From Gammaproteobacteria bacterium (GTDB lineage: Bacteria; Pseudomonadota; Gammaproteobacteria; UBA4575): a stretch of 64,000 nucleotides of DNA. Positions within the stretch are counted from its first letter, which is position 1; every line of letters begins with the position of its first letter. Below, piece after piece: positions 36,598 to 45,661 of the stretch. Position numbers and translations under genes: made by a program. The notes below the pieces were generated by a model that was not told the origin of the DNA, searched no databases, and saw only the letters and a program-made list of their open reading frames with translations. The DNA lies in the NCBI GenBank assembly GCA_026713925.1, contig JAPONM010000025.1, positions 1 to 64,000 on the forward strand, given 5' to 3'.

Positions 36598-37095
36598 ATG
36601 AATAGAAGGGCATTTATATTCACTGCGGTAACAGGATTGGCTTTGTTTACGGTATTGCAGTTCAAGTCCAGCCACAACAAAATCAATATTAAAGCTGCAG
36701 CAAGTATAAAAAAATTGGAATACAGCGATGATTTCTGGCGCAACGCCCTGTCGTCCAACCAATATGCCATTTTACGAAAAGGTGCTACAGAACCCCGCTA
36801 TTCAAGCAAGTACACCGAGTTCAATGAAGCAGGAAGTTATCATTGCATTGGCTGCAATCTGGAACTGTTTACTTCGGATATGAAGTACGATAGTAAGACA
36901 GGCTGGCCCAGTTTCATGGACCACCTCAGAGGACATCTGGAAGTTTACACAGATTTCAGGACAATTTTACCCAGTATGGCCTATTCTTGCGCTCAATGCG
37001 GAGGGCATCACGGTCACCTGATCATGGATGGTCCGCTACCTACTGGACAACGCTGGTGTAGTAACGGCCAGACCCTGGAATTCAGGCCTGCATGA
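36598..37095 (+). CDS. msrB: Peptide-methionine (R)-S-oxide reductase MsrB with N-terminal membrane/Tat-like anchor
   Basis: It reduces the R epimer of methionine sulfoxide in proteins. It is 165 residues: N-terminal NRRAFIFTAVTGLALF (2-17), with twin Arg and a hydrophobic stretch, pointing to export or anchoring. The MsrB domain follows, with zinc Cys83/86 and Cys131/134, GWPSF (102-106) and catalytic Cys154 in QRWCSNG. Trp replaces the more common Tyr/Phe before the catalytic Cys. The position of MsrB outside the cytoplasm would fit periplasmic protein repair. The next gene overlaps its stop codon (ATGA). Confidence 0.93.
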   Translation: MNRRAFIFTAVTGLALFTVLQFKSSHNKINIKAAASIKKLEYSDDFWRNALSSNQYAILRKGATEPRYSSKYTEFNEAGSYHCIGCNLELFTSDMKYDSKTGWPSFMDHLRGHLEVYTDFRTILPSMAYSCAQCGGHHGHLIMDGPLPTGQRWCSNGQTLEFRPA

Positions 37096-37463: not shown

Positions 37464-37541
37464 GTCGTACCCTACCAAGGTATAGCCTAGGCTGTACTAG
37501 TGCAGAGCAATTATGGATATGGTGTAACAGGAATTCCTCTC

Positions 37542-37976
37542 ATGAAAGAAATTACATTAAAACAAGCGAATGAAATCATCAATGCCGCCCATCGTGAGGG
37601 ACAGGAGCGGAAATTAGCTCCACTTACAATAGTTGTGCTGGATACCGGAGGTCATATCAGGGCACTATCAAGAGCTGATGGAGCCAGCTTCATGCGCTCA
37701 AAAATCGCCATGGCAAAGGCGTGGGGTGCAATTGGAATGGGATTGCCATCCAGCGCTCTAGATGAGATGGGCAAGCAAAGACCCATGTTCATGAATGCCC
37801 TGATTCATATCGCAGACCAGGGGCTTATGCCAGTGGCGGGTGGTGTTCTGGTACGGGACCACAACAATACTGTGATTGGCTCAGTAGGAATCTCCGGTGA
37901 CCTTTCTGATCAGGATGAGCACTGCGCCATTGTCGGCATCAAGGCCGCAGGATTCAGTACAGATTCAATAAAATAA
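37542..37976 (+). CDS. GlcG/HbpS-family protein (DUF336)
   Basis: This 144-residue single-domain protein begins ITLKQANEIINAAHREG, followed by VVLDTGGHIRALSRADGAS and PVAGGVLVRD, all diagnostic of the GlcG/HbpS fold. Members bind heme or corrinoids, or accompany glycolate oxidase; the function here is open. ATG 37542 has AGGA 8 bases upstream; the frame extends upstream to a GTG at 37500. Confidence 0.93.
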   Translation: MKEITLKQANEIINAAHREGQERKLAPLTIVVLDTGGHIRALSRADGASFMRSKIAMAKAWGAIGMGLPSSALDEMGKQRPMFMNALIHIADQGLMPVAGGVLVRDHNNTVIGSVGISGDLSDQDEHCAIVGIKAAGFSTDSIK

Positions 37977-40325: not shown

Positions 40326-40739
40326 TCACATGGTTTCCATTACACACTTGTCACGGGCAGTACGGGCCAGGTCAATCGAGTGTTTGTAATATTCACTGAG
40401 ACGATCATAGTTGAGTTCTTCCCTGGTTTTCGAGACGGCTACCACATAGTTGGCAAATTCCTGATCGGAAGGCATATTCTCGCTGATACAATGACAGAAT
40501 TCCTCGTGGCCAATGGCCTTAACACAAGCCATTTTCTTATGCTGGATATGAAGGTTAAACTGCTCCATCACCGTCTTTGGCGTGACCTGGCCGCTGGTTG
40601 CATGCTTGTCCACCAAATGGTCAGCTTCATACCCCTCCAGCGCATCCAGCATTCGCGGCAGATGTTCATCGCCGGCCGCAGTCAAGGATGCAAACACAAG
40701 CAAAGTCATCAATGCGCACAGGAATAGTCTGGGGTACAT
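40326..40739 (-). CDS. Hypothetical secreted protein with four cysteines
   Basis: It has 137 residues. A clear signal peptide (1-22, cleavage near LTAAG) is followed by a helical charged domain with Cys72, Cys82, Cys84 and Cys132, which could form two disulfides or a metal site. The segment CVKAIGHEEFCHCI is the most distinctive. I do not recognise the family. The local DNA is somewhat more GC-rich than the surroundings. Confidence 0.75.
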   Translation of the reverse strand: MYPRLFLCALMTLLVFASLTAAGDEHLPRMLDALEGYEADHLVDKHATSGQVTPKTVMEQFNLHIQHKKMACVKAIGHEEFCHCISENMPSDQEFANYVVAVSKTREELNYDRLSEYYKHSIDLARTARDKCVMETM

Positions 40740-40882
40740 GGGCTACCTTCTGAGAGATGCCCGGATAGCTGTGTTACAGCGGTGAACCGGCCGGGTGTGG
40801 CAAAATGCATCCTGGCAGAAGAGCAGTTTCAACCGCGAACTCAATGAAAACATGACTCCGGGCCATATCTTTTGTACGATAT

Positions 40883-40898
40883 ATGTATTCAGATACAT
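40883..40898. promoter_or_regulatory. Palindrome upstream of the DUF2892 gene
   Basis: ATGTAT (40883-40888), spacer TCAG and ATACAT (40893-40898) form a perfect 6-4-6 dyad about 52 bases before the DUF2892 start. It may be an operator; the cognate regulator is unknown. Confidence 0.3.
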
Positions 40899-40950
40899 GG
40901 TACCTGTTCCGGCTGTGTGATCAAGACATCAACGAATGAGGTAATGAGCG

Positions 40951-41133
40951 ATGACTATAAATATGGGCGACACTGAACGCATGTTTCGAATCCTGATCGG
41001 CCTTCTGTTTATTGGCCTAGCCTTCGCATTGGGCGGAGGATGGTGGTTCGGTTTACTGGGGGCTATACCAGTCCTCACAGGGCTTGTAGGATCATGCCCT
41101 GTTTACATGCCCTTTAGAATATCAACCAATTAA
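40951..41133 (+). CDS. DUF2892 small membrane protein
   Basis: It is 60 residues with two hydrophobic segments (13-28, 31-47) and the motif GLVGSCPVY near the C-terminus, both typical of DUF2892, the YgaP-type membrane domain found alone or fused to rhodanese. It contains the usual N-terminal NMGDTERMFRILIG. GAGG lies upstream of ATG 40951. It may help handle thiosulfate, cyanide or metal, as suggested for YgaP, but evidence is thin. Confidence 0.88.
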   Translation: MTINMGDTERMFRILIGLLFIGLAFALGGGWWFGLLGAIPVLTGLVGSCPVYMPFRISTN

Positions 41134-41201
41134 AACCCCGGGTTCTTCTTGGATACGACCTAGGTATTCGACAAGCTTACTGAAAACTGGCTGCAACCGT
41201 G

Positions 41202-41223
41202 CACTCCCCCAAGCGGGGGAGTG
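41202..41223 (-). terminator. 9-bp GC-rich hairpin
   Basis: CACTCCCCC (41202-41210), loop AAGC and GGGGGAGTG (41215-41223) form a perfect stem 18 bases beyond the stop of the DUF1326 gene. It probably acts as a terminator for that gene on the minus strand and may serve the DUF2892 gene on the other. The following U-tract is weak (TTTT 17 bases on). Confidence 0.55.
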
Positions 41224-41241
41224 TGTGATTTACTTCCCGTG

Positions 41242-41847
41242 TTACGGCCCGTATTGAAATGGAGAGGCCAAACCTGCTTTACCTGACTCGCTCCACTCTA
41301 TGCCGTTATCATTGTAGCTGGCACTCTTGGACTCATGGACGATGACTGGATTGCCGGGTGCCACTGCAAGTGGGTGGTTAGCCACGATCACTGGCTTTCC
41401 ATCTTCCCCTTCCATGGGATACATCTCGTTTTCACCGATACCTTCGATCACCAGGTGTTTCTTGGCATCGGTACTTTCAAAAGAGATTTTTGCCTTCTTT
41501 GCGCTCATTACTTCGCCTACCAGGCTTGCGATTACACTTAAATGGCCACCCCCTTCACCACTCCATAGTGAGCAAATGGCATCAAACTGTGCATCACTGG
41601 CTTCCTCGTCAACATAAAGTGCAAGCCTCCAGTTTCCTTCGGTGAGGTGGCCTGGTGCATGTAACCACACCCCAACCTTGATTCCATCCAAGCTCACATC
41701 ACCACAGTGGCCCTTTTCAATGTGCCAACCAACTATAGCTTCGCAATAACCCTTAGTAGGGTTTTTCAGTAAAATACATGGGCACAAATTATCACATGTA
41801 CAAGACTCGAAATAGTTGCCCTCAACACCCCAGTCCGTTATAGCCAT
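41242..41847 (-). CDS. DUF1326 domain protein
   Basis: It is 201 residues, predicted cytosolic, with an N-terminal Cys cluster: Cys16, Cys18, Cys22 and Cys24 (SCTCDNLCPC), plus Cys35 and Cys48 and nearby His residues. This could bind a soft metal. The family has no established function. In many genomes it is adjacent to DUF2182 membrane proteins; here the DUF2182 gene is divergent, 239 bases away. ATG 41847 has GGGAGG about 7 bases upstream. Confidence 0.92.
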   Translation of the reverse strand: MAITDWGVEGNYFESCTCDNLCPCILLKNPTKGYCEAIVGWHIEKGHCGDVSLDGIKVGVWLHAPGHLTEGNWRLALYVDEEASDAQFDAICSLWSGEGGGHLSVIASLVGEVMSAKKAKISFESTDAKKHLVIEGIGENEMYPMEGEDGKPVIVANHPLAVAPGNPVIVHESKSASYNDNGIEWSESGKAGLASPFQYGP

Positions 41848-41996
41848 TGCATACCTCCCAAGGATGGATATATTAGGTTTGTAAAAACGATAGAATACAC
41901 ATAGTTGCGACTATAGCTCAAAATGGCTATTCTTTAAACACCTACAGGCAGTAAGGCTTGAATACAAACTACGTATAACTTTCCCACTTGTAGAGG

Positions 41997-42018
41997 TTGA
42001 CCTGCTCTAAATTGTCAA
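41997..42018. promoter_or_regulatory. Inverted repeat in the DUF1326/DUF2182 divergent promoter region
   Basis: TTGAC (41997-42001) and GTCAA (42014-42018) are separated by 12 bases, between the divergent genes. Spacing resembles a dimeric regulator site. A TATATT at 42032-42037 might be a -10 for the DUF2182 gene, but the -35 is not convincing. Confidence 0.25.
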
Positions 42019-42086
42019 TCGGTGAAATCTGTATATTTTTAATATTCACAAATTCTGACCATTTGACCTTTCAGGCCTGAATATCC

Positions 42087-42884
42087 ATGAATTCATCTGG
42101 GCTATCTATCTCTGCACTACCCTCCAAAGACAGAGCAATTGTCCTATCCGGGCTAGCTATGGTCGCCGCTATTGGCTGGCTGTACATGTTTTACATGGCT
42201 TGGGCCATGGACAATATGCACTTGGTCGATATGTGGATGCCTCCTCAAGGTGGTACGCGTGCTTGGACATCATGGGACCTTTTCATGCTTTTTATTATGT
42301 GGTTTACCATGATGCTTGCCATGATGACACCTACTGTTGTCCCTATGGTACTGATGTTTACAACAGTTAATAGGCAAAAAAAGCTTAAAGGACAGCCCTA
42401 TGCACCCACATTCGCGTTTTTGTCTGGATACCTAGTGGCCTGGGGCATGTTCAGCCTGTTGGCCAGTGCAGCCCAATGGCTACTGCATGAATATGGCCTG
42501 CTAAACCCGATGATGAATAGTACCAGTTATCTATTGAGTGGCGCAGTCCTCATCCTAGCAGGGGTTTACCAGTGGACCCCTATGAAAGATGCATGTTTAC
42601 ACCAGTGCCGAACTCCACTTGGATTCTTGATGGCAGCATGGAAAGACGGCAGGTTCGGGGCTTTCCAGATGGGTATGCATCATGGTTTGTTCTGTGTGGG
42701 CTGCTGCTGGGCTCTAATGGCTGTTTTGTTTTCCGTAGGTGTCATGAATATACTCTGGGTTGTGTTGATTACGATATTTGTACTGCTTGAAAAAGCATTG
42801 CCATATTCTGCTACCATCACACGAACGATAACCGGAACTGGGTTGATTGTATGGGGGGTTTGCTGGTTAATGCTTTATCCCTGA
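42087..42884 (+). CDS. DUF2182 predicted metal-binding membrane protein
   Basis: It has 265 residues and about six to seven hydrophobic segments. It is Met-rich in the first half (MFYMAWAMDNMHLVDMWM, FMLFIMWFTMMLAMM), with HHGLFCVGCCW (about residues 195-205) carrying His and Cys, and PMKDACLHQCR (about 163-173) with two further Cys. The pattern of Met, His and Cys in membrane segments resembles copper-handling proteins, but no function is established for DUF2182. Its partner DUF1326 is divergent. Confidence 0.92.
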   Translation: MNSSGLSISALPSKDRAIVLSGLAMVAAIGWLYMFYMAWAMDNMHLVDMWMPPQGGTRAWTSWDLFMLFIMWFTMMLAMMTPTVVPMVLMFTTVNRQKKLKGQPYAPTFAFLSGYLVAWGMFSLLASAAQWLLHEYGLLNPMMNSTSYLLSGAVLILAGVYQWTPMKDACLHQCRTPLGFLMAAWKDGRFGAFQMGMHHGLFCVGCCWALMAVLFSVGVMNILWVVLITIFVLLEKALPYSATITRTITGTGLIVWGVCWLMLYP

Positions 42885-42968
42885 TAAACCACTTAGGCCT
42901 ATCCACAAAACTAAAGACAGTTGAGTTTCTAACCCTCAATTTCTCATACCCTATTATACTGGCCTGTA

Positions 42969-43361
42969 ATGTACAAAATTGATCGCTGTCATAATTTTTT
43001 TTCGATGTACATGATCGGACCCATGTTTACTGCCTTACATACCATATTTGAACAGCAATACCAGAAACTTGCTCTTGCGGTAGACGAAACTGCTGAGCAA
43101 ATTCGTGCACTTGGGAAATTGGCTCCTGGCTCCTACAGCAGGTTCGCAGAATCCACCCAGATCGATGAAGAGACTGGTGCACCTGATGCGGAAAACATGA
43201 TCCGACAGATGGTTCTAGAGCAGGAAGCTGCAGTACGAACAGCACGCGAGGTCTTTCCGGTAACTGAACAGGCAACCGACGAACCAACTGCCAATTTGCT
43301 CACAAATCGTATGCAGACGCATGAAATAACAGCCCGGGTGCTGAGGGGCTTACTACAATAA
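42969..43361 (+). pseudogene. Truncated Dps-like ferritin gene
   Basis: Residues from GPMFTALHTIFEQQYQKLALAVDE to the end match the C-terminal three quarters of Dps-type proteins (e.g. ALGKLAPGSYSRFAE, RTAREVFP, RMQTHEITARVLRGLL). The N-terminal helix normally preceding GPMF ends in HNFHWNVT, but here the frame reads HNFFSMYMI over a run of eight T, and the expected first 30-40 residues are missing. The HW His that contributes to the ferroxidase site is lost. A frameshift or small rearrangement is the likely cause. Whether a shortened protein is made is unknown. Confidence 0.75.
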
Positions 43362-43468
43362 ACTGGTAATCCATTTGATACCTCATGGATTTGTCACCTG
43401 ATGCGCCATAGTAGACATAGCACGGCACTTCATGAAGTTAACGACCAATTCATTAAGGAGATTACAAT

Positions 43469-43798
43469 ATGTTTGGATTAGGTGGAAAAAACAAAGATTT
43501 CAAGGCAACAGTAAAAAATACAGGCCAGACATTCGATGTCAAGGGTGGTATTAACCTTTTGCAAGCAGCTAAAAATGCGGGAATTGACTGGCCATGCGAT
43601 TGCAAAGTTGGCTCGTGTGGCACCTGTCGAGCCAAGCTGATTACTGGTAAAGTAAAGGCGCTGACAGATTTCGCATACACTCTTGACGGCGATATGCTTA
43701 AAAACAATTACATTCTAGCTTGTCAGTCCAGACTTAAAACAGATGTTGAGATTGAAGTAGACTTCAACCAGACTGCTATTAACCCGGATTACAAATAA
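43469..43798 (+). CDS. [2Fe-2S] ferredoxin
   Basis: This 109-residue ferredoxin has a beta-grasp fold and Cys45, Cys50, Cys53 and Cys85 as probable cluster ligands (CDCKVGSCGTCRAK and ILACQS), the plant-type C-x4-C-x2-C pattern. Cys43 is extra. AAGGAG lies 8 bases upstream of ATG 43469. It could donate electrons to a P450 or to an oxygenase; no reductase is adjacent. The protein is acidic toward the C-terminus, as usual for electron-transfer ferredoxins. Confidence 0.95.
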   Translation: MFGLGGKNKDFKATVKNTGQTFDVKGGINLLQAAKNAGIDWPCDCKVGSCGTCRAKLITGKVKALTDFAYTLDGDMLKNNYILACQSRLKTDVEIEVDFNQTAINPDYK

Positions 43799-43807
43799 GG
43801 ACAGTTT

Positions 43808-43824
43808 GCCATGTCTAGCATGGC
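43808..43824. terminator. Hairpin after ferredoxin gene
   Basis: GCCATG (43808-43813) and CATGGC (43819-43824) form a 6-bp stem 10 bases after the ferredoxin stop, without a following U-tract. Confidence 0.3.
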
Positions 43825-43864
43825 AAGCACGCCTGACATGCTTTAGGCCTCTGGAAAACAAGAG

Positions 43865-44290
43865 TTGTTTTGGAACAACCTGCAAACTTGGAAGCAAAGC
43901 GCCTACAACACAATGTGGTGTTTGATAGGGTGCGCTATAGGTGATTTCGGGACTATTGCTTATTTCCAGTTCTTCACAACAGGCATCAACCCGCTACTCA
44001 TATTGACCTTGGCTGTCGTTAACGGACTCATCACCAGTGTGATACTGGAAACAATAATTCTAATGCGCAAGGGTATGGTGATCAACACGGCTTTCAGAAC
44101 AGCCATGGGCATGAGTTTTATCTCAATGGTTTCCATGGAAGTCACCATGAACATTACTGACTATTTTCTCACTGGTGGTGCAAAACTTGTCTGGTGGGTT
44201 ATACCTGTCATGCTTGTTGTAGGGTTTCTAACCCCATGGCCGTATAATTACTGGCGCTTGGAGAAGCTTGGCGAGTCCTGCTGCCATTGA
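43865..44290 (+). CDS. DUF4396 membrane protein
   Basis: It is 141 residues with four hydrophobic segments (about 15-34, 42-60, 75-95, 110-128). Family-typical motifs are CLIGCAIGDFG (18-28), SMVSMEVTMNITDYFLTGG and a C-terminal Cys-Cys-His. The only plausible start is TTG 43865, weakly supported by GGAAAA upstream. DUF4396 has no known function. It follows the ferredoxin gene and precedes the LplT-like gene by 6 bases. Confidence 0.85.
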   Translation: MFWNNLQTWKQSAYNTMWCLIGCAIGDFGTIAYFQFFTTGINPLLILTLAVVNGLITSVILETIILMRKGMVINTAFRTAMGMSFISMVSMEVTMNITDYFLTGGAKLVWWVIPVMLVVGFLTPWPYNYWRLEKLGESCCH

Positions 44291-44296
44291 AATATC

Positions 44297-45661
44297 TTGT
44301 CTACCGATAATAAACTGAATTCAAAAAATCAGCTTCAACTGCTGAAAGAAAAACGTTTTGGCCCTTTTTTCCTTACCCAGTTCTTTGGCGCCTTCAACGA
44401 TAATGTATTTAAAAATGCACTAATTATACTTGTAGCTTTTCAAAGCAGTTATTCAGGTTCTGAGGCTTCAAACAACATAATCAATCTAGCAGCAATCCTA
44501 TTCATTTTGCCGTTTTTCCTTTTTTCTGCAACTGCCGGTCAAATTGCAGATCGCTTTGAAAAAGCAGCACTGATAAGAAAAATTAAATTGGGTGAAATAG
44601 GCATTATGCTGTTCGCTGCAATAGGGTTTTACCTCAACAATATTCCTTTTCTATTGCTCGTCCTATTCCTTATGGGTTCTCAATCTTCATTCTTCGGCCC
44701 AATCAAGTACTCCATTATCCCAGAACACCTAAAAAAAGAGGAACTGATCGGAGGCAATGCATTGGTAGAATCTGGAACATTCATGGCAATTTTGCTAGGT
44801 ACGATTTTTGGTGGATTTCTGGTGGGAATTTCTTCCGATTCAAGAATATTGGTATCATGCACTGTAATTGCTCTGGCTAGCTTGGGCTATATAAGTTCTC
44901 TAAACATACCCTTATCTTCTGCCGTTGATCCGATGATCAAAATACGGTGGAACCCATTTACCGAAACATTTCGCAACATAAAGTTACTAAGGGAAAATAG
45001 AACTGTTTTTTTCTCCATATTGGGCATTGCATGGTTTTGGTTTCTAGGTGCAACCTATATCACTCAGCTACCGAATTTCACACATCTTGCTCTCGGTGCC
45101 GATGCACAAGTCGTTACTTTATTTCTGGCCTTGTTTTGTATAGGCATTGGGTTGGGCTCACTGCTTTGTGAAAAACTATCCAACCATACAATTGAGTTAG
45201 GCCTAGTACCAATCGGCTCTATGGGCCTTTCTCTTTTTGGTGTTGACGTTTTTTTTGCAGCTACCTTACATACATCCAGCGAACTTCTCAGCCTGCAAGA
45301 GTTTATTCAAATAAAATCAAACTGGCGTCTTTGCATTGACATGTTATTTATAGGTGCATTCGGTGGTATTTACATTGTTCCGTTATACGCACTGATTCAG
45401 GCCCGTACCAATCCGCAAAGGCGCGCACGAGTTATTGCAGGAAATAATATTTTAAATGCAGTAGCAATTGCTGCCGCTTCTATTTACGCTATGGTACTGC
45501 TCAATGCAGACTTGAATATCCCCCAGCTTTTCCTGATAGCAGCAATACTAAATGCAGTCTTCGCACTTTATCTTTTTGTACAAGTCCCTGAGTTTATTAC
45601 GCGTTTCGTTGCTTGGGTCCTGACTCATCTGGCGTACCGTGTAAAAAAAAATACACCTTGA
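44297..45661 (+). CDS. MFS transporter, LplT-like
   Basis: It has 454 residues and 10-12 hydrophobic segments, with the N-terminal FFLTQFFGAFNDNVFKNAL typical of the lysophospholipid transporter LplT and the fused LplT-Aas proteins. No acyltransferase domain follows, so this is the stand-alone form. It may flip lysophospholipids for re-acylation; drug efflux is the alternative. TTG start, 6 bases after the DUF4396 stop. Confidence 0.88.
   Translation: MSTDNKLNSKNQLQLLKEKRFGPFFLTQFFGAFNDNVFKNALIILVAFQSSYSGSEASNNIINLAAILFILPFFLFSATAGQIADRFEKAALIRKIKLGEIGIMLFAAIGFYLNNIPFLLLVLFLMGSQSSFFGPIKYSIIPEHLKKEELIGGNALVESGTFMAILLGTIFGGFLVGISSDSRILVSCTVIALASLGYISSLNIPLSSAVDPMIKIRWNPFTETFRNIKLLRENRTVFFSILGIAWFWFLGATYITQLPNFTHLALGADAQVVTLFLALFCIGIGLGSLLCEKLSNHTIELGLVPIGSMGLSLFGVDVFFAATLHTSSELLSLQEFIQIKSNWRLCIDMLFIGAFGGIYIVPLYALIQARTNPQRRARVIAGNNILNAVAIAAASIYAMVLLNADLNIPQLFLIAAILNAVFALYLFVQVPEFITRFVAWVLTHLAYRVKKNTP

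Follow-up and report, generated by a model that had tools for sequence, protein, structure and literature searches.

Which of the small metal- and redox-related genes crowded into positions 40326 to 44290 of the window, a 64,000-nucleotide stretch of a 226-kb contig in a gammaproteobacterial draft genome of 2.0 Mb, form a functional unit, and what does that unit do? A first-pass annotation of this DNA had grouped seven genes into one cluster around a divergent DUF1326-DUF2182 pair, and had suggested that the pair captures and passes on a soft metal such as copper. Every gene that it named is present where it was placed, and the motifs it reported, C16-x-C18-x3-C22-P-C24-x10-C35 in DUF1326 and HHGLFCVGCCW in DUF2182, are correct. 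Our analyses show that the unit is DUF1326 plus DUF2182 only, widely conserved as a pair. The pair very probably handles copper, and we propose DUF2182 as an inner-membrane Cu(I) loader or importer and DUF1326 as a cytosolic five-Cys Cu(I) acceptor.

Across 369 gammaproteobacterial genomes, DUF1326 was found in 37 and DUF2182 in 40, with both in 36 (Fisher p = 3e-44), a co-occurrence far above chance that bears out what had been expected of the two families. In a phylum-wide sample of 398 genomes, all 44 with DUF1326 fall among the 52 with DUF2182. Where both members lie on one stretch they are nearly always adjacent, divergently oriented in the window's lineage (gap of 72-361 bp) and elsewhere co-directional, sometimes overlapping. 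When the genes surrounding some 100 DUF1326/DUF2182 loci were clustered, no association of the other window neighbors with the pair appeared beyond the close relatives L003-L005. The closest loci, L003-L006, are from metagenome-assembled gammaproteobacterial genomes.

For DUF2182, a copper role was already attributed in outline through membership of the PpoB2 family. The window protein scores 222.3 bits against Pfam PF09948 (curated cut-off, 28.7), the former DUF2182, whose Pfam name is already "PpoB2, Copper chaperone." The founder of the named family (COG5486), PpoB2 of Marinomonas mediterranea, has a part in transferring copper to the tyrosinase PpoB1 and not to the laccase PpoA (PMC2855505); within the family, such transfer to an enzyme is known for PpoB2 alone. 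Like PpoB2, the window protein belongs to PF09948 and is a Met-rich, Cys-containing membrane protein; unlike it, its partner is a divergent DUF1326 gene, the ppoB1-ppoB2 operon with tyrosinase being a feature of the founder and not of the family. Searches of the literature under the DUF, COG, and Pfam names turned up a PpoB2 review alone for the two families, and to our knowledge DUF2182 has a single studied member. In the literature searched (open access, without bioRxiv and with few subscription journals), we found no study of DUF1326 and no mention of its pairing, of the CxxxC pattern described below, or of the methanethiol and dimethylsulfoniopropionate (DMSP) context.

One new finding is the company that unpaired DUF2182 genes keep: tyrosinase, multicopper oxidase, SBP56, and copper-resistance genes. 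Tyrosinase adjoins DUF2182 in four loci (L084, L085, L203, and L204; about 10 bp apart or overlapping), and in L161 a gap of 3 bp separates it from a multicopper oxidase. Paracoccus seriniphilus has the order SBP56 - ferredoxin - DUF2182 with no adjacent DUF1326. Mycobacterium avium and Sulfitobacter plasmids have DUF2182 within CopA/CsoR/MerR/CueR clusters. In L152, whether or not DUF1326 is considered, DUF2182 is near CusA-type RND (resistance-nodulation-division) genes. In Caballeronia, a tyrosinase lies 2.1 kb from a DUF1326-DUF2182 pair. The proposed capture and transfer of a soft metal stands, in that PpoB2 and the neighborhoods of its relatives indicate copper, but it is not new, the annotation having left the PpoB2 assignment unmentioned. 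No tyrosinase stands beside the window DUF2182; a genome-wide search of the window's genome with PF00264 gave no match, although its controls were equally empty, and the M. avium multicopper oxidase used as a query found no relative there in a search without a positive control. The same genome encodes, at L197 14485-14817 on the minus strand, a 110-amino-acid secreted peptide with repeated EGKCGEGKCG that resembles copper-binding bufferin precursors (ribosomally synthesized and post-translationally modified peptides of the MNIO type); it has no Pfam match, and no maturase was seen adjacent to it.

The AlphaFold2 model of the window DUF2182 (mean predicted local distance difference test [pLDDT], 93.6) has seven long helices. 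In the alignments built for the structure models (53 DUF2182 and 57 DUF1326 sequences, leaving out those from plasmid records), the Cys and Met patterns singled out by the annotation rank among the most conserved positions of both families. Invariant in DUF2182 are, among others, W31, W72, M79, M80, C203, C207, and E235, and conservation reaches at least 90% at M75, P82, C170, C174, C206, and M211. Loop 38-61 contains on average 3.7 Met and less than one Lys or Arg per sequence over the 53 homologues, and loop 163-187, with the CxxxC, has the highest Lys plus Arg content of the loops; by the positive-inside pattern, the Met-rich loop is predicted to be outside and the CxxxC loop inside. The window protein has the full Met/Cys core (M75, M79, M80, C203, and C207), which is kept in 84/88 DUF2182 proteins encoded beside DUF1326 and in 16 of the 17 without an adjacent DUF1326. 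Ctr1-type importers combine a Met ladder in a transmembrane (TM) helix with a Met-rich external segment, an arrangement that DUF2182 shares, but DUF2182 has seven predicted helices and no match in the PDB by sequence or fold: a sequence search of solved structures gave no relative, and a fold search gave nothing below E = 0.4. A 973-amino-acid DUF2182 "fusion" in L083 was dropped as an apparent spurious upstream open frame.

The window DUF1326 scores 170 bits (curated cut-off, 25) and has the complete CxCxxxCPC...C pattern. C16, C18, and C35 are invariant, C22, P23, and C24 are at least 90% conserved, and in a separate set of 40 sequences all five Cys are present in every one; conservation of His is only partial. 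The model is confident (mean pLDDT, 97.1) and beta-rich, with the five Cys around the first hairpin. No solved structure was related by sequence, and the fold search returned weak matches only (acetoacetate decarboxylase, TM score 0.35). We infer that DUF1326 binds metal. Chaperones of the CopZ/Atox1 type are cytosolic Cys-based Cu(I) acceptors, the role proposed here for DUF1326, although its fold is larger and different, its Cys pattern is another, and it has no sequence relative in the PDB.

The two proteins also appear to be linked through the CxxxC of DUF2182. Both C170 and C174 occur in 87/88 DUF2182 proteins encoded beside DUF1326 versus 8/17 of those that are not (p = 7e-8, confounded by ancestry), and three of these eight (L045, L048, and L081) come from genomes with a DUF1326 elsewhere. 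A site at which DUF1326 docks or is handed the metal would show this pattern, which is a lead and not proof, because independent losses on the tree are few.

The contexts of the paired form point to methylated-sulfur metabolism. The commonest, in Rhodobacterales, is GntR - DUF2182 - DUF1326 - (DinB) - dmdA - acuI, in which DmdA scores 680 bits (cut-off, 410). In two Gammaproteobacteria, the pair, or DUF1326 alone, lies beside DmdA-like genes scoring just under that cut-off (356 and 374 bits). Marinovum algicola has SBP56 within the pair's cluster; SBP56/MtoX oxidizes methanethiol and depends on copper (PMC5739008). MtoX-type genes, defined as the low-scoring branch of PF05694 that holds the bona fide MtoX of the window's genome, are strongly associated with the pair: they occur in 20/36 gammaproteobacterial genomes with the pair versus 18/333 others (p = 2e-13), and at the family level in 16/26 versus 10/155 (p = 5e-10). 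The classical SBP56 branch showed no clear excess in the same sample (3/36 versus 9/333, p = 0.10). In a second sample, any SBP56 was found in 22/42 pair genomes and 0/38 others, the negatives being unmatched for size or taxon.

In the window's genome, MtoX (762 bits; cut-off, 650) is encoded together with SCO1 and a MauG-like di-haem protein at 184-188 kb of the same contig, C25 (L197 8298-11870), which places them about 145 kb away from the pair, not adjacent to it. SCO1/SenC beside mtoX has been proposed to supply copper to methanethiol oxidase (Eyice et al., PMC5739008), and it adjoins mtoX here too; it belongs to an unrelated family, PF02630, and shares the distance from the pair. The genome has no clear DmdA, the best of three matches scoring 142.7 bits against the cut-off of 410. 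MtoX would be the best client candidate in this genome, though seemingly exported and served by its own SCO1; that MtoX/SBP56 is the pair's main client in general is possible but doubtful. The mtoX-SCO1-mauG cluster adjoins folD and apparent formylmethanofuran/formyltransferase genes of one-carbon oxidation. A stretch of a Phaeobacter inhibens plasmid (L217 4998-11350), without DUF2182, has the order SBP56 - 2Fe-2S - CoA-binding - rhodanese - metallo-beta-lactamase hydrolase - enoyl-CoA hydratase - acyl-CoA synthetase - GcvT-like and looks like a methylated-sulfur degradation operon.

We regard it as an even bet that DUF1326 and DUF2182 work together as a copper relay of two proteins. In such a relay, Cu(I) would be collected by the Met-rich periplasmic loop of DUF2182, carried across the membrane via the TM2 Met ladder and the TM5 His/Cys/Met ladder, and handed from the cytoplasmic C170/C174 to the five-Cys cluster of DUF1326, which would deliver it to a copper enzyme or buffer it. 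The direction of transport and the final client we infer. The tyrosinases and SBP56 proteins encoded next to DUF2182 have no evident signal peptide (judged by eye), a hint of cytosolic clients and so of an inward copper path; inward transport is plausible, with the odds leaning somewhat against it. Bacterial cytosolic copper enzymes are rare, and we know of no general copper importer for them. A bolder version of the relay, in which the pair is dedicated to importing Cu(I) and delivering it to copper enzymes of the cytosol, chiefly those of methanethiol and DMSP metabolism, and DUF1326 is a cytosolic copper carrier of a new class or itself a new copper enzyme, has in our estimate a probability of roughly one in four; the strengths given for copper handling, relay, direction, and client are likewise judgements and not computed values. 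Connecting the pair with copper, and also with methanethiol oxidase and the demethylation of DMSP, gives two orphan families a role in the marine sulfur cycle that can be tested, and points to a way in which bacteria might supply copper to enzymes that are not exported.

Several observations weigh against the relay. The L161 multicopper oxidase appears to leave the cytosol by the twin-arginine translocation (TAT) route and, in the window's genome, MtoX begins like a protein with a signal peptide, so that an inward path would not suit some clients. The SBP56 matches of the second sample are nearly all of the classical branch and not MtoX, and the MtoX link, which was compared without an unrelated control family, could stem from a common lifestyle, from genome size, or from ancestry. 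A tree-based test of the CxxxC link gave two supported independent contrasts and no significance, losses being few and the test underpowered. The divergent region between the two genes has no conserved copper-regulator or operator site beyond close relatives, and promoter and terminator scans of it remained at chance level.

DUF1326 could instead be the client itself: DUF2182 would load it, as PpoB2 loads tyrosinase, and it would be a copper protein or enzyme of the cytosol that acts on methanethiol or other thiols. DUF2182 otherwise adjoins its likely client (tyrosinase, multicopper oxidase, or SBP56) and DUF1326 takes that place, inside dmdA operons among others, with a confidently modeled fold to which no solved structure comes close. 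Conserved ligands that are Cys only, with His partial, nevertheless look more like Cu(I) storage or transfer than a catalytic copper site, and no activity is known; we consider this alternative unlikely. Rather improbable, in turn, is a copper-tolerance device that sequesters or exports the metal with no dedicated enzyme client. The resistance clusters of M. avium and the Sulfitobacter plasmids, and the RND genes of L152, speak for it, but the DUF2182 copies in resistance clusters are mostly unpaired, the form paired with DUF1326 is rarely near resistance genes and has catabolic operons as its commonest conserved context, and PpoB2 supplies copper to an enzyme (PMC2855505).

There is a small chance that copper plays no part, with the Cys coordinating zinc, joined in a disulfide, or ligating an Fe-S cluster, and the pair acting in the metabolism of thiols or methylated sulfur compounds. 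The link to methylated-sulfur genes (DmdA in Rhodobacterales operons, DmdA-like in two Gammaproteobacteria) is strong, and copper binding by DUF1326 is putative; against this, the Met-rich membrane helix and loop of DUF2182 fit Cu(I), its homologue PpoB2 acts on copper, and unpaired relatives sit with copper enzymes. Finally, a single metal/redox system spanning the whole 4 kb (four-Cys protein, DUF2892, the pair, Dps, ferredoxin, and DUF4396; see the table), as the first-pass cluster implied, has in its favor the neighborhood in this lineage, where the ferredoxin keeps its place, but is contradicted by the survey and rejected, since beyond close relatives only the pair is conserved, the Dps gene is decayed, and DUF4396 stands beside the pair here alone, with an in-frame stop after its upstream ATG.

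Table. Features of the 4-kb stretch and sequence elements of the DUF1326-DUF2182 pair (window coordinates)
Feature	Position	Strand	Basis or remark
Secreted protein, four Cys past signal peptide	40326-40739	-	No Pfam/NCBIfam family
DUF2892, Pfam now "YgaP-like_TM"	40951-41133	+	Pfam
DUF1326 protein, 201 amino acids, no signal peptide seen	41242-41847	-	Pfam PF07040, 170 bits
DUF1326 codon C35, fifth conserved Cys	41743..41745	-	Invariant
DUF1326 codons 16-24, C-x-C-x3-C-P-C	41776..41802	-	Conservation
Divergent intergenic region, 239 bp	41848..42086	.	Between DUF1326 and DUF2182
DUF2182, now "PpoB2, Copper chaperone" (COG5486 family), 265 amino acids	42087-42884	+	Pfam PF09948, 222 bits
Met-rich stretch, residues 34-51, TM1 end and predicted periplasmic loop	42186..42239	+	
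TM2 methionine ladder, residues 71-82, MWFTMMLAMMTP	42297..42332	+	M79, M80 invariant; M75, P82 at least 90%
Predicted cytoplasmic-loop CxxxC, C170 and C174	42594..42608	+	
TM5 ladder H199-x3-C203-x2-C206-C207-x3-M211	42681..42719	+	C203, C207 invariant; C206, M211 at least 90%
Dps/ferritin fragment (partial)	42969-43361	+	Pfam
[2Fe-2S] ferredoxin (Fer2)	43469-43798	+	Pfam
DUF4396, C-terminal end SCCH	43865-44290	+	Pfam

Among the loci examined, recurrence of the DUF2892 and four-Cys genes is limited to L003, the ferredoxin keeps its place in L003-L005 only, and DUF4396 was found beside the pair in none. In L004 and L005, the place of the four-Cys and DUF2892 genes of the window and L003 is occupied by a second, longer DUF1326 copy in tandem (233 amino acids; L004 3751-4452 and L005 8983-9684), which is absent from the window and L003. 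The dps remnant recognized by the annotation is a 5'-truncated gene whose first helix is gone, an intact 161-amino-acid gene standing at the equivalent place in L004 and L005; in L003, dps is split into two short frames. The DUF4396 frame has an ATG at 43811 followed by an in-frame TAG at 43844-43846, and the open frame begins with TTG at 43865 with the Pfam domain still complete, indicating either non-ATG initiation or decay. One paper mentions DUF4396 at the flank of a heavy-metal cluster of Acidihalobacter.

A strong terminator-like hairpin (41198-41227; 13-bp stem, CCCCC/GGGGG) separates DUF2892 from the 3' end of DUF1326. Close upstream of a sulfate adenylyltransferase gene are genes for an MsrB-like protein with a signal-peptide-like start (36598-37095) and an HbpS-like haem-degrading protein (37500-37976). 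The major facilitator superfamily transporter at 44297-45661 has 454 amino acids in the window versus 612-619 in L003 and L005; the L003 protein carries a C-terminal acyltransferase domain (PF01553), a portion absent from the window copy.

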